From assembly GCF_032925565.1 (NCBI RefSeq), contig NZ_CP136708.1, forward strand, positions 2,108,001 through 2,172,000: DNA of 64,000 nt, given 5' to 3'. Shown here in pieces: positions 2,677 through 51,615 of the stretch. The DNA is from Alteromonas sp. CI.11.F.A3. Lineage in GTDB: Bacteria; Pseudomonadota; Gammaproteobacteria; Enterobacterales; Alteromonadaceae. Under the pieces are notes generated by a model. The model was not told where the DNA came from. It did not search any database and was given only the letters and a program-made list of their open reading frames with translations. Each line of letters begins with the position of its first letter. The first letter of the stretch is position 1. Position numbers and translations under genes: made by a program.

Positions 2677-3129
2677 TTAATCGTGGGGCAATTCTACAAA
2701 CTCAATCCAGTAGCGACCTAGCGCGCGCATAAGCTCGACAAGTCCCTCGAAATTCACAGGTTTGGTGATATAGGAAGCACAGCCTAAATCGTATCCGCGA
2801 AGCATGTCTTCTTCTTCTTTGGAGGTAGTAAGAATGACTACTGGGATCCCACGTAGTTTAGGGTCAGTTTTCAATTCTTGCAGCGCTTCTCTGCCGTCTT
2901 TACGTGGCATGTTAAGGTCTAACAGAATTAAGCTAGGGCGGGGGAATTTGCTGGCATCTGTGTATTTGCCTTCATGACGTAAAAATTCGAGTAATTCCAC
3001 GCCATCTTCAACACAAAATAAGTTGTTTAACACACGGCTTTCTTTCAGTGCGTCTACGGTTAATAGACGATCGTCCTCATCGTCATCTGCCATAAGGATA
3101 TTAATAGGTTGGGATTGTTTACGCGTCAT
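2677..3129 (-). CDS. Single-domain response regulator (Rcp1/CheY-like)
   Basis: A 150-residue stand-alone receiver. The acidic pocket (ADDDEDD), the acceptor Asp in LILLDLNMP, the Thr/Ser switch in VILTTS and the conserved Lys in TKPV are all present. There is no output domain. The length and the RKDGREAL loop resemble Rcp1-type regulators that pair with phytochrome-like or CHASE3 kinases. The chosen ATG (3127-3129) has GGAGAT about 7 bases upstream and overlaps the kinase stop codon by 11 bases, which implies translational coupling. An ATG 15 bases further upstream is possible. It is the likely phosphotransfer partner of the kinase encoded immediately upstream. Confidence 0.9.
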   Translation of the reverse strand: MTRKQSQPINILMADDDEDDRLLTVDALKESRVLNNLFCVEDGVELLEFLRHEGKYTDASKFPRPSLILLDLNMPRKDGREALQELKTDPKLRGIPVVILTTSKEEEDMLRGYDLGCASYITKPVNFEGLVELMRALGRYWIEFVELPHD

Positions 3130-45863: not shown

Positions 45864-45906
45864 AAAAAAGCGGCTAACCTAACAGGTTAGCCGCTTTTTT
45901 CTTTTT
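45864..45906. terminator. Bidirectional terminator
   Basis: A 17-bp stem with core GCGGCTAACCT and AGGTTAGCCGC, a 3-base loop and A/T runs on both sides. It serves the metalloprotease gene and possibly the converging hybrid kinase. Confidence 0.9.
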
Positions 45907-46063: not shown

Positions 46064-48853
46064 TTAAGCCTCTTTTACAAACTGCTCATTTAATACCTGA
46101 TACAAATATTCTGGCTTAACGGGTTTTACAATGTGTGCATTCATACCCACGGCGAAGCTTTTTTCTATCTCTGTTTGCATGGCGTGAGCTGTCATCGCCA
46201 CAATTGGAACGTCTAATTTTAATTCTTCTCGAATTTTTTGAGCTGCAGTTAACCCGTCCATTACTGGCATCTGCATATCCATTAGAACAAGATCGAAGAC
46301 GTTCTCTTGCTCCAACATTTGCAAAGCAATTAAGCCATTCTCTGCAACACTGACTTTTGCCTTTGTATCGGCTAAAAATAGCTTAGCAACTTTACGGTTA
46401 ATCGCATCATCTTCTACAAGCAGGATGTTTTTCTCAGAAAAATCGGGTGGCACATTGGCATCGCTTTCTAATGTCGCCATTTGAGGTTTACCCTTGGTAG
46501 ACATTTTCAATAAGCAATTCTGCAATGAGCTGCTATTAACGGGTTTTTGCAAATAATATTCCACACCCACCGGGCGGCCAAGGGTCTTAAGTGACTCGAT
46601 ATCATAAGCTGACAGCATCGCTATGTTCGGCTTACCTTGGCTGAACTCTTGGTTAATAATTGATGCTAATTCGATGCCATCAATATCCGCCATTTTCCAA
46701 TCAATAATAATTAAATCATACGGTGCGTTGCTTGCCATAGCGGTGCGCAGATACATTAACGCTTCTTTACCACCAGTGGCCAAGTCTGGGTTTATATTAA
46801 TACGCAACAAGGCTTCCGCTATTGCCTGTCTTGAAAGCATAACATCGTCAACCACCAACACTTTTAAATCGGATAAGGTTAAGTTTCCTAAGCTACCGGG
46901 CTGTGGCATTTGATTATGCTTTTCAACCAACACCGTAAAGAAGAAAGTAGCGCCTTGACCCAGCTTGCTCTCTACCCATATTTCCCCGCCCATTAGCGAG
47001 ACAAGGTGCTTACAAATTGATAAACCTAACCCCGTTCCACCATATTTACGGGTAATCGATTCGTCAGCTTGCGTAAAGGCATCGAACAGCGATTCTATTT
47101 GATTTGTTGATAGGCCAATGCCTGTATCTTTTACTGAAAACTCAAGTAAAACACCGTGTTCAGAGTATTTTTTATTAACCGATACGAACACCATGCCTTC
47201 GTCGGTAAATTTAATCGCATTGCTTAGCAGGTTATTCAGCACTTGCTCAATACGCAGAGCGTCACCAGAGACTTGCAAGGGAACATCTCTTGCCACGTAC
47301 TGTAATAATTCAATACGTTTCTCTCTGGCATTTAACCCGTGCAACCGAATGACTTGCTCAACCAGTTTGTCGAGTTCAAATGCCTCAGATTCAATATCAA
47401 GTTTACCCGCTTCAATTTTTGAAAAATCTAGCACATCGTTTATTACCCCTAGCAGGGTTTGAGACGACTGTTCAATTTGGGTTAAGTTGGTTTTCTGTTC
47501 TTCATTAACGACAGATTTTTGTGTCAGCTTGGTAAGCCCCACTATCGCGTTCACGGGCGTTCTAATTTCGTGGCTCATACGGGCCAAAAATTCTGACTTC
47601 GCGTCGGTGGCTTTTTGTAGATTTAACGCAAGCTCTCGCAATTCTCGCTTCTGTTTAAGTGTGATAACAAACATAAAGAATAAAAGAACAGCTACGCAGC
47701 AAATAGTAACAATGATGTACACTTGAAACGTACTATTTTGTTCTGACAGTTGCTGACTAAGTTCTAATTCAGTAATTTTTTGTATCTTTTGATCGGTTTC
47801 CAAACGTGCTCTATTAAACGCTAATTGCTCTGATTGACGCGTATCAAAAACCTGCTGCTTTAATTCTGAATGTTGTAAAAGAAATTGGTAAGCATCACGA
47901 TATTGGCCTTGAAGTAGCGCAATATTGGCTTGTATCTTTAAGCCTTCATACTGATATTCAGTAATATCTAAATCTTGTGCAATTGATAAGAACTTCAACA
48001 CCGTTTGGGTGGCTTCATCAATACGTTCTAACTTGAGTAAAACCTCTGACCGCAACGCAAGCCCCGCAAGCTCTCGTTGGCGGTGTTTTCCAGTAACTGC
48101 ATACTTTATAATATCTTCAGTAACCGCAAGCGCTTCTTCATGGTTACCTAATTGAAGGAGGGTTTTTGCCAGATAGAAATTTAAGATGGGAGCAAATTTA
48201 TCGGGATCAGTATTTACTTGGTCAATCAATGATTTCGCTTGTTTTATTTCTCCCTTAGCCAACAGGCCCGATACAATAAAACCGTACCCTTGCTCTTCAT
48301 AATAGGCGTTGCCGCGTTTAATTGATTCAGCAACCAGTTGTTCACCTGTATTTATTAGGTTATCTGCCCATTGATTCGATTTCGCATACAAATTTCCTAT
48401 GGCTTGCAGCGTATTCTGTATGTAGGTGGTGTCTAACGACTGATGGATACTCAGGCTATTAAGTAGTAATTCTAATGATTCACCGTATAAATCAAAGAAA
48501 TAAGTTATTATTCCTTGTCGTCTTAACGCTTCGGCAAGTTGCATCTGGTTACCAGCTTCTGTGGCTAGCTTCTTTGCCTGTGTTGCCTTTTCGTAGGCAA
48601 GTTGATAGTTACCCTCCAGAATGTACGAATGACTTTTTAGATTAAGCAAGTGAGCTTCATAGGCTGGAAGGTCTTTGTCTGCTAAATACCTCTCGGCTTG
48701 GGTAAGAAGCTTCTTTGCGAGGGTGGGGTTAACGAATACATTCTTATCGGCAGTTTGTAATACCTTATCAATATCAACCGTTGCGTCTTGAGGAAACACA
48801 GGAAAGCTGGGCAGTGCTAAAAGCACTACCCACAAAAGGCGCAACAATCTCAT
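46064..48853 (-). CDS. TPR-containing hybrid histidine kinase (HisKA-HATPase-REC-REC)
   Basis: A 929-residue sensor. A signal peptide (about 1-21), a periplasmic TPR solenoid (about 30-370), one membrane helix (about 377-399), HisKA with [10 protein letters not shown] (His428), HATPase_c with DTGIGL and GGTGLGLSI, and two C-terminal receivers with acceptor Asp in LIIIDWKM and LVLMDMQMP follow. TPR sensors of this kind are common in Alteromonadales. It is 29 bases downstream of the borosin precursor gene and on the same strand, so it may be cotranscribed with it. What it senses is unknown. Confidence 0.93.
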
Positions 48854-48882: not shown

Positions 48883-49092
48883 CTATTTCGAGTGACTAAT
48901 TTCTAGGTTATCTGCGCCTTCAGCCTCACATCGGCTCTTTATCGCATTAACATCGTTTTTAGCACATATTTGAACATCTTCATCAGATAGACCAAATGCT
49001 TTAGCCGTGCCTTTAGGATCGCTTACATACTGCTGTTTTAACGTCTCATCTTTATCCATAGCGATTAAAAACTTTACCAACAAATCATTCAT
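48883..49092 (-). CDS. Split-borosin RiPP precursor peptide (SonA-like)
   Basis: A 69-residue protein. An N-terminal helical borosin-binding domain (about 1-55) carries LLVKFLIAMDKDE, QYVSDPKG and FGLSDEDVQ, the pattern of Shewanella SonA (LSDFF, YKQNPEA, HGLTDEQIN). The C-terminal core ends DNLEISHSK. Its Leu63, Ile65, Ser66 and His67 fall at the SonA positions, where from memory Leu63 and Ile65 are alpha-N-methylated. A methyltransferase gene of the matching type lies 39 bases upstream. The predicted product is a backbone N-methylated peptide. The family call is supported by both halves; the methylation is an inference. Two cysteines (43, 55) are of unknown use. Confidence 0.85.
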   Translation of the reverse strand: MNDLLVKFLIAMDKDETLKQQYVSDPKGTAKAFGLSDEDVQICAKNDVNAIKSRCEAEGADNLEISHSK

Positions 49093-49131
49093 TTTTTATT
49101 CCTTTATTTTATGTGGTTAGAAATTTAGGTT

Positions 49132-49956
49132 TTAGCCAAATAGCTTTTGTTCAAAAAGGGCAGGGGTTAAATCTAGTTCTGCCATCGATTTCATATCAAA
49201 ATCTGGTAACCCTTTAGAGGGGATAACCAACGTAGTAATAGGTTTTGGTATTACAGCGGCCAAATCTTTAAGTTCAAGATATTCTATTCGAGGTGCGGCA
49301 ATGGGGATAGTAGAGGCTTCATAAACAATAATGGTGTGCTCAGGAGAAAAGTACTTTAACAATTCGTTTCTTAGCTGCGTTAAGCCCGGGTGCGATGCAC
49401 GATTTTTGTTATGCGTGAAATCGGCAATACTGCCAATCTGCCAGATAATCTGCATCATATGAGGATCTAAGGTATATTGCCTTAGCAGAAACTGAGTTGC
49501 CTCATAAGACTGGCATCCATAATGTGCGGGGTCTAGCCCTAAATCTGCTACTAAGCAGTCTTCGGCAGAAATCCCAGGCAGCATTTCGGCGTCATACCCT
49601 TCGCTTTTTAATTGTTTAATGGCCTCATGTGAGGGATTGACAAATACCCCAGGGTGACCATAAAACGCCGCCACCACTTTTTTTCCTGCTTTGACTTCAT
49701 CAACAATGCGTTGGGTCATTTTTTGGTAGGTGAGTGCCCGAGACTTGCCTTGCTCGTAAAGGTGGCGTAAACACACCACATTCGAGTTAATCATTTGCAG
49801 ATTCACAAGCGCTGACTCTGTTACAACGCTCAATACGATATCGGCTGTTTTAAGTAGGCTTTCCGTAATTAAGGTCATTTGGCCAGATACAGTAATACCT
49901 GTACCAACTACTACCAAAGATCCTTTTGATTCTATGTTCATTCCATCCATTTCCAT
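49132..49956 (-). CDS. Split-borosin alpha-N-methyltransferase (SonM-like, TP-methylase fold)
   Basis: A 274-residue enzyme of the tetrapyrrole-methylase fold. The SAM-binding GSLVVVGTGITVSGQ, YGHPGVF and PGISAEDCLVADLGLDP motifs are present, followed by CQSYEATQFL and IIWQIG, as in SonM. In borosin pathways this enzyme methylates peptide-backbone nitrogens of a precursor, here encoded as a separate chain by the next gene. Cobalamin or siroheme methylases share the fold, but no such pathway gene is near, and the SonM-specific motifs argue for borosin. Three Met codons crowd the start (49956, 49950, 49941); the first is used, the last is nearest to the SonM N-terminus. Confidence 0.88.
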   Translation of the reverse strand: MEMDGMNIESKGSLVVVGTGITVSGQMTLITESLLKTADIVLSVVTESALVNLQMINSNVVCLRHLYEQGKSRALTYQKMTQRIVDEVKAGKKVVAAFYGHPGVFVNPSHEAIKQLKSEGYDAEMLPGISAEDCLVADLGLDPAHYGCQSYEATQFLLRQYTLDPHMMQIIWQIGSIADFTHNKNRASHPGLTQLRNELLKYFSPEHTIIVYEASTIPIAAPRIEYLELKDLAAVIPKPITTLVIPSKGLPDFDMKSMAELDLTPALFEQKLFG

Positions 49957-50231
49957 TGAGAGTGGGGTACGTATAGCCTTAATTGAATATAATGGAAAAT
50001 ATATCCATTGTTAATCACTTTGTGGTTATAACCGATATGGTTTTGTCGTAAAGAAAGCGAGTGACTTAACGTTAACATTGATTCGCGCTCATTGGTGACC
50101 CTAAATCTATATTACATGCTGGTTAGTTCCAAACGTTTTATCGTTCAGTTTAAAAATAGTATTGTGCAGTTAGAGCACTAAGTTCTGCATTGCCAAGTGG
50201 TAAGTAACGTTAGTTAATTTAGGGATTTATA

Positions 50232-50600: not shown

Positions 50601-51065
50601 TTACGGCTGATAAGGCAATGAAGATTGATGCAAAATAATACGCACTTTGCCATCTTCACATTGCTTAAAGACAAAACTTTTGTTCACAAAGATGTGACTG
50701 TCGTCTTCCCCAATAAAGTGAACATTGCACTGCACAATGGCTAGTTCACCATTTAAAATAAAATTTTCTTTGCTGTACCACACTTTAACCCAAGGCTTAA
50801 GCTTAAAACCGTTGTCGTCGGGGTAGTCGCTGTTTCCACCTACAAAATACGAAAGCGCGCCTTCTTTAGTCGGGCGGAACGTTTGCTGACCAAACGTCAA
50901 AGTAGGCTTAAACAACACATGACCATTGTCATAATCATAGCTGTCAGAAAGTACCTGAAGAGAAAACGCTTGAACGTCTCCACCTTCGGTATGAACTTTT
51001 CCAACTTTTACTACATTGTCGCACCAAGTTTGTAGTGCCGTATGCACCATCTCTTTAGTAAACAT
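50601..51065 (-). CDS. Hypothetical soluble protein, possibly NTF2-like
   Basis: A 154-residue soluble protein. The N-terminal helix, then alternating beta strands ending in KVRIILHQSSLPY, resemble the cone fold of NTF2/SnoaL-like proteins, whose conserved terminal HHSS pattern it echoes. The start at 51065 has AAAGGAG about 14 bases upstream and begins the conserved-looking helix; the longer frame adds 18 basic residues. Enzyme activity cannot be assigned. Confidence 0.65.
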   Translation of the reverse strand: MFTKEMVHTALQTWCDNVVKVGKVHTEGGDVQAFSLQVLSDSYDYDNGHVLFKPTLTFGQQTFRPTKEGALSYFVGGNSDYPDDNGFKLKPWVKVWYSKENFILNGELAIVQCNVHFIGEDDSHIFVNKSFVFKQCEDGKVRIILHQSSLPYQP

Positions 51066-51615
51066 AATGTATACCTCTCCTTTAAAATATCTTTTGTTGG
51101 CCTTAAAGCTGGTTACCAAATTTTAAAACGATTTGGGCATTTGCGCAAAACGCCGGCACCGTTTTCACACTTCGTTACTACATAAAAAACGTCGGGTATT
51201 GATTAATAATTTATGTTTTTGTTATGTGATAATATAACAATTACAGCTTAAAGATTTGGCTACAGTTAGCAATAGTAATTGGAGATAGCTTTTATCTATC
51301 AAGCATTAATGAGCTTCTATTTCATCATCAGTAACACGAGTTAACACAAACAGATTTTTTTATAAATATGTATTGGCATATTAAGGTGCACCCAGTGTGC
51401 AAAATAATAGTTACGGTGCGCTTGCCAACGGGGTAGTAAAACTCGAATAGGCTTTTGAAAGCGCTATAATGGCATTTGAAAGCAAGCAAGTTAGGTTGTG
51501 GAAGGTTAATAGTAGAAGCGGATAACCTTGGCCATTATCGTTAGCTTGCACTTGGCGAAAAAAAGGCGGTAACAGCCGTGCGCTAATAAAGCGTCAACTT
51601 TAAATAAACTGATAG
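51066..51615. other. Intergenic region (550 bp)
   Basis: AT-rich. I see no gene longer than 60 codons with a ribosome binding site, and no strong terminator or repeat. It holds the promoter of the leftward NTF2-like gene. Confidence 0.5.

Follow-up and report, generated by a model that had tools for sequence, protein, structure and literature searches.

The 64,000-nt window analysed here spans positions 2,108,001 to 2,172,000 of contig NZ_CP136708.1 of the marine bacterium Alteromonas sp. CI.11.F.A3, whose genome of 4.66 Mb forms a single contig. Three genes on the minus strand, here called M, A and S, encode a methyltransferase of the split-borosin type, a small candidate precursor peptide and a hybrid histidine kinase with a tetratricopeptide repeat (TPR) region, and are separated by 39 bp (M-A) and 29 bp (A-S) (Table 1). 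An earlier interpretation of the same letters, the sequence-only reading, had placed a split borosin pair of the SonM/SonA type at 48883 to 49956. Both open reading frames (ORFs) lie there, encoding 274 and 69 aa, and the pair itself stands, but the operon extends further, to the third gene, S, which lies outside those coordinates.

The best match to M in a PDB sequence search is SonM (7ltc_A; E 4.9e-57, 196 bits), a resemblance too strong to be due to chance, and borosin methyltransferases make up 25 of the 26 PDB sequences listed. The fused fungal borosins dbOphM (E 3e-51) and OphMA (E 3.4e-48) also match, and M is 40% identical to the SonM ortholog found at locus L136. The motifs picked out in the sequence-only reading (GTG, YGHPGVF, PGISAEDCL, QSYEATQF and WQI) are all present. 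Residues Y67, R73, Y77, Y99, W172 and Q173 are invariant in a 21-sequence alignment, and the first four correspond, by PDB pairwise alignment, to SonM Y58, R67, Y71 and Y93, which are discussed in the accessible part of PMC8429565. By these comparisons, M is predicted to be a stand-alone alpha-N-methyltransferase of the SonM/OphMA family. Membership of PF00590 (65.5 bits, Pfam) and the public names uroporphyrin-III C-methyltransferase or YabN on some relatives (120 listed of 6675) could suggest a tetrapyrrole (cobalamin/siroheme) methylase beside an unrelated small protein A, but this identity is scarcely credible and was rejected on the ranking of PDB matches (SonM 196 bits, siroheme synthase 22 bits with E 7.9e-4) and on ten NCBIfam matches far under their cut-offs (best 46.7 versus 525), and a SonA-like precursor adjoins M. 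The sequence-only reading had itself named closer kinship with tetrapyrrole methylases as what would overturn it; the kinship found is with SonM. Anti-phage defence was likewise rejected, as PADLOC gave no match for M or A; its sole signal was a weak one (E 5.8e-6) over the second receiver of S. Close relatives of M occur in Alteromonas sp. MMG017 (100% identity), A. lipotrueae (95%) and Alteromonas sp. 1_MG-2023 (90%).

A single-sequence search with A returned SonA weakly (E 0.0097), and Pfam LigA reached 19 bits, under its cut-off of 25.3. When the A profile was aligned to the SonA-like set with hhalign, a probability of 96.6 was obtained (E 5.8e-10 over 65 columns), which identifies A, at the level of sequence profiles, as a relative of SonA. 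A is predicted to be a separate precursor, adjacent to its enzyme, with a borosin-binding leader domain and a C-terminal core whose hydrophobic residues (L63 and I65) stand in the SonA register; SonA is methylated at L63 and I65, according to the accessible part of PMC8429565. As had been noticed from the letters alone, L63, I65, S66 and H67 carry the same numbers as in SonA, and A has Cys43 and Cys55, where the aligned SonA row has no Cys. Among near relatives, residues 62–69 read NLEISHSK, NIEVSHSK, NVQIDCSK or MIDISLAK, with positions 63 and 65 aliphatic throughout. Relatives of A were found beside M and a kinase. The precursor profile search had not fully converged after eight rounds (189, then 191 members). 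Enzyme and substrate are encoded as separate chains, as the sequence-only reading had pointed out, unlike in fungal OphMA and dbOphMA, whose methyltransferase domain is homologous to M but fused to the substrate. With M related to SonM and A related to SonA by profile, the two almost certainly form a split-borosin pair, and backbone N-methylation of A by M is predicted.

S is predicted to have a signal peptide, a TPR region, a transmembrane helix, HisKA and HATPase domains and two receivers, the topology being itself a prediction. Its phosphorylation motifs (H-box His428 and the receiver motifs) are intact, its predicted model contains one long helix at 318–417, and Pfam finds no DNA-binding domain in it. 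In the model, the TPR region forms a superhelix of the kind seen in Rap and NprR. These proteins are peptide-pheromone receptors of the RRNPP family, built on TPRs. Identity between them and the S domain is 11–12%; a PDB sequence search with the region gave nothing under E 0.3, although fold comparison did give matches.

The 17-pair hairpin after S is the likely end of the operon. Terminator-like hairpins number 9 in the region versus 4.3 in shuffles. Promoter-like sites number 6 versus 11.6, and so are no commoner than chance. A weaker minus-strand hairpin at 48808–48832 (11 pairs, followed by a weak T run) lies inside the first codons of S and possibly reflects attenuation. Upstream of M, a 172-aa gene at 50601–51119 (minus strand) resembles metal-independent carbonic anhydrases (NF047901, 118.5 bits, cut-off 350) and was kept outside the operon because a 99-aa ORF on the opposite strand intervenes.

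Table 1 Genes, domains and candidate signals at the M-A-S locus (positions in the window).
Feature	Position	Strand	Basis
M: split-borosin-type alpha-N-methyltransferase, TP-methylase fold, 274 aa	49132-49956	-	SonM 7ltc_A match, PF00590
A: precursor peptide, 69 aa; N-terminal SonA-like (LigA-like) leader domain, linker, core	48883-49092	-	SonA match, profile comparison
Putative core of A, residues 62-69 (NLEISHSK), predicted methyl sites L63 and I65	48886-48909	-	Register with SonA
S: TPR hybrid histidine kinase, 929 aa, starting 29 bp after A	46064-48853	-	Pfam HisKA, HATPase_c, two Response_reg; H-box and receiver motifs
Predicted signal peptide of S, about residues 1-22	48788-48853	-	N-terminal hydrophobic stretch; end judged by eye
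Predicted extracytoplasmic TPR superhelix of S, about residues 25-340	47834-48781	-	
Transmembrane helix of S, about residues 373-398, then K/R-rich stretch	47660-47737	-	Hydropathy up to 3.06
HisKA of S, residues 418-483	47405-47602	-	PF00512, E 5e-19
HATPase of S, residues 530-642	46928-47266	-	PF02518, E 4.5e-29
Two receivers of S, about residues 667-775 and 810-921	46091-46855	-	PF00072, two stretches; limits of the first estimated from motifs
Promoter-like site directly upstream of M, 10/12	49986-50014	-	Consensus match only
Bidirectional terminator-like hairpin, 17 pairs, after S	45864-45900	.	Strongest of 9

The neighbourhood of M was surveyed in 98 relatives, 394 genomes of the order and 398 of the phylum, sets that overlap. 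At E 1e-35, M was matched in 95 of the 394 order genomes (24 of 114 genera); phylum-wide, 15 of 398 genomes matched. The 194 loci examined were those of the listed borosin-grade matches except G070:C166 and, with the window, gave 200 M ORFs, 186 of them with a precursor within 3 kb. A GGDEF or kinase ORF was observed within 1.6 kb of 170 of the 200, scored by GGDEF and histidine kinase domains and not by TPR (126 GGDEF and 44 kinase; 127 and 43 once L147 is corrected), and all but one of these sensors (L133) are on the strand of M. In controls, such a neighbour was found in 63/692 cases, and among 846 genes lying over 2.5 kb from M, 29 carried these domains, both figures being inflated by cassette sensors. 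The remaining 30 M ORFs comprise 22 adjoining a TPR-like protein, four extra M genes that adjoin a complete cassette (L125, L128, L129, L152) and four with neither sensor nor TPR neighbour (L060, L121, L223, L227). Paired M genes, in one cassette or side by side, were seen at L125, L128, L129, L077 and L152; at L223 and L227, the M domain lies within ORFs of 638 and 1174 aa, which are perhaps fused borosins.

An N-terminal hydrophobic segment is present in 157 of 169 sensors, and PF13424 in 84 of 106 sampled N-termini, all from cassette sensors (a random 105 of the 168 non-window sensors plus the window's, including misassigned ORFs of L054 and L147). What follows the TPR domain at this place in relatives varies: a shorter kinase, a GGDEF diguanylate cyclase, or nothing with a recognised output. 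Of the 22 TPR-like neighbours, four (L043, L150, L177, L202) are short or cut by a contig end, and 18 look complete and lack a recognised output domain, 14 without and four with a C-terminal membrane segment (Pfam checked on three examples). One to three such TPR-only proteins occur per cassette (L168, L174, L178, L179, L181, L182, L187–L190, L192, L197–L199); an N-terminal hydrophobic segment is missing from one L199 ORF, and in one L192 ORF the segment is internal. The exported TPR domain thus looks like the constant of these cassettes. The L153 sensor is a kinase whose TPR lies closest to the GGDEF type (distance 0.84 versus 4.01). In the 29 genomes with at least two cassettes, M and TPR distances agreed in 3914 of 4312 triplets (shuffled mean 0.50, maximum 0.73; the misassigned L147 ORF was included), so that an M and its TPR partner tend to stay together, an agreement that reflects linked inheritance and not binding. 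A search with the TPR region of S itself gave 33 matches in the 98 genomes, 28 of them beside M. Taken together, the partnership of M, A and a TPR sensor is predicted to be general among relatives, and its conservation and operon layout are well supported by sequence comparison.

According to the accessible part of PMC8429565 (PDB 7LTC), the type IV system SonM/SonA of Shewanella oneidensis likewise pairs a separate enzyme with a precursor of about 70 residues bearing a helical leader. The M/A pair keeps its catalytic residues and the core hydrophobics at 63 and 65 but differs in the core (NLEISHSK versus YLVISHGNGD), in the two Cys of A and in a side-clamp loop of M that is 3 residues shorter. 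The partners differ as well: M/A is followed by a hybrid kinase, whereas L136, whose M differs from SonM at 20 of 263 positions by visual count (about 92% identity) and whose precursor differs from SonA at 9 of 71 (about 87%), is followed by a TPR-GGDEF gene. By analogy, such a neighbour would be expected in S. oneidensis too, and the characterised SonM/SonA system seems to belong to the TPR-linked group. TAL-effector chains matching the L136 precursor were set aside as a repeat artefact (0 stretches passing alone).

Another close system is the TPR-GGDEF operon RcbA/RcbB of Vibrio vulnificus, in which, by the accessible part of PMC12282931, a TPR domain controls the activity of a GGDEF output and the gene for its partner is adjacent. 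There, however, that partner, RcbA, is a TPR protein too, TPR-deleted forms give diffuse, cytoplasmic signals, and that part of the account mentions no borosin gene. Borosin types IV–X are mentioned in the accessible parts of PMC11395268 and PMC11285071. Within a literature search that left out subscription papers, preprints and supplements, no paper that connects borosins with TPR sensors came up, and none that pairs borosin with Alteromonas, diguanylate or tetratricopeptide; borosin and histidine kinase were co-mentioned only in separate contexts, and the SonM/SonA locus tags appeared only in the 2021 paper PMC8429565. The link may already be in print.

Because the outer domain of S resembles peptide-pheromone receptors, bacterial split-borosin peptides may be signals, and we lean slightly towards M-A-S being one operon for a peptide ligand and its receptor. 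M would dock on the helical leader of A and methylate the core backbone at the predicted sites Leu63 and Ile65, after which a protease would free the core. The released core would leave the cytoplasm, and backbone methylation may aid its membrane crossing and its resistance to proteolysis. The TPR superhelix of S, exported from the cytoplasm, would then bind the core product and pass the signal via the membrane helix to the kinase and on to the receivers. The split-borosin pair, operon layout, conserved partnership and TPR fold are well supported by comparison, and we infer methylation, cleavage, exit, binding and signalling.

Several observations weigh against a ligand–receptor operon. TPR folds bind proteins of many kinds, and the S domain has its best structural matches in eukaryotic LGN, so that likeness to Rap and NprR does not point to a ligand. 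Rap and NprR act in the cytoplasm, on imported peptide, whereas the N-terminal hydrophobic segment and transmembrane helix of S predict an extracytoplasmic TPR attached to a membrane kinase; S may thus work like Rap and NprR but is not classed as an RRNPP member. Unlike their peptides, that of M/A is predicted to be backbone-methylated. The SonA register does not hold everywhere, since residue 63 is Arg in the 67-aa precursors of another cassette type of the genus (19 precursors, ending TIRVISY or alike). Core types vary widely between cassettes, with acidic tails in 37 of 191 precursors, and this variety is hard to fit to one binding mode. No exporter or protease is seen in the window operon. 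Five of the 33 TPR matches lie away from M (G007, G018, G040, G025:C23, G002:C14), and the G007, G018 and G040 genomes have no borosin-grade M. At L229 (about 2691–2891, minus strand) and L230 (upstream of 1285, plus strand), both in genomes without M, a precursor-like end (..SKANRVVSY) lies directly upstream of the kinase, with neither leader nor M, so these two orphan kinases look like losses from a cassette; no precursor remnant was found upstream of the L228 orphan kinase.

S could also sense another cue and regulate the pathway. In that case the TPR sensor would switch borosin production in response to an unrelated cue, and the methylated peptide would serve a different purpose, for example binding a metal or inhibiting competitors. 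Sensors of their own are common in biosynthetic clusters, S shares an operon with M and A, and TPR kinases without M exist. However, S has no DNA-binding domain by Pfam, GGDEF outputs are found on 126 of the 170 sensors, and the 18 output-less TPR loci are easier to reconcile with a TPR that binds the product than with one that controls transcription, which makes this explanation unlikely, at roughly one chance in several. The output-less loci, where TPR-only proteins hold the sensor position, would suit a TPR domain that acts as chaperone, carrier or docking platform for peptide maturation and export, with signalling secondary or absent, and TPR proteins are common as scaffolds; since 170 of the 200 M genes have a GGDEF or kinase neighbour and the kinase motifs of S are intact, we consider such a role quite unlikely. 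Finally, descent of a single ancestral arrangement, or chance, could account for the neighbourhood with no functional link: the M genes are related, and their tree requires just two changes of the kinase/GGDEF label, so the loci are not independent events, which also weakens the case for a ligand and receptor. Yet the arrangement is kept where M is only 34–50% identical to the window M and in two gene orders (M-A-S and A-S-M), and the control neighbourhood stands at only 63/692; we regard this explanation as improbable.

Some cassettes carry further linked genes. A pepsin-like protein lies within about 1.1 kb of M at 32 loci (including L062, L063, L065 and L109; one is a 104-aa fragment), with PF00026 confirmed in one example. 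M is present in 37 of 43 genomes with PF00026, compared with 95 of 394 order genomes overall (Fisher 5e-20, uncorrected for kinship; both counts come from the same 394-genome draw as far as genome handles show), although the protease does not adjoin M in some of the 37. PF00026 was found neither in the window genome nor in any of 14 control genomes. This protease may be the maturation enzyme of that cassette subtype; the accessible part of the shewasin D paper (PMC4814920) gives no genomic context and mentions no operon, gene cluster or methyltransferase. Forty-seven M genes (L062, L121, L125 and others) have a GNAT acetyltransferase gene within 3 kb, in some cases between M and A; its product is a possible second tailoring enzyme.

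Extended to the whole order, the ligand–receptor proposal becomes more tentative, and we would place it a little short of even chances: split borosins would be self-made, backbone N-methylated signals read by a dedicated TPR receptor outside the cytoplasm, whose output module (hybrid kinase, kinase, diguanylate cyclase or none) can be exchanged. This would be a membrane-bound Gram-negative counterpart of Rap/NprR, with the pepsin-like protease maturing one subtype. As of 2021, no type IV borosin pathway had been tied to a final natural product, according to the accessible part of PMC8429565. Should the TPR sensors prove to be receptors, direct tests of what bacterial split borosins do would become possible. 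Backbone N-methylation would then be a signalling modification, and orphan TPR-GGDEF and TPR-kinase sensors would gain a candidate ligand.
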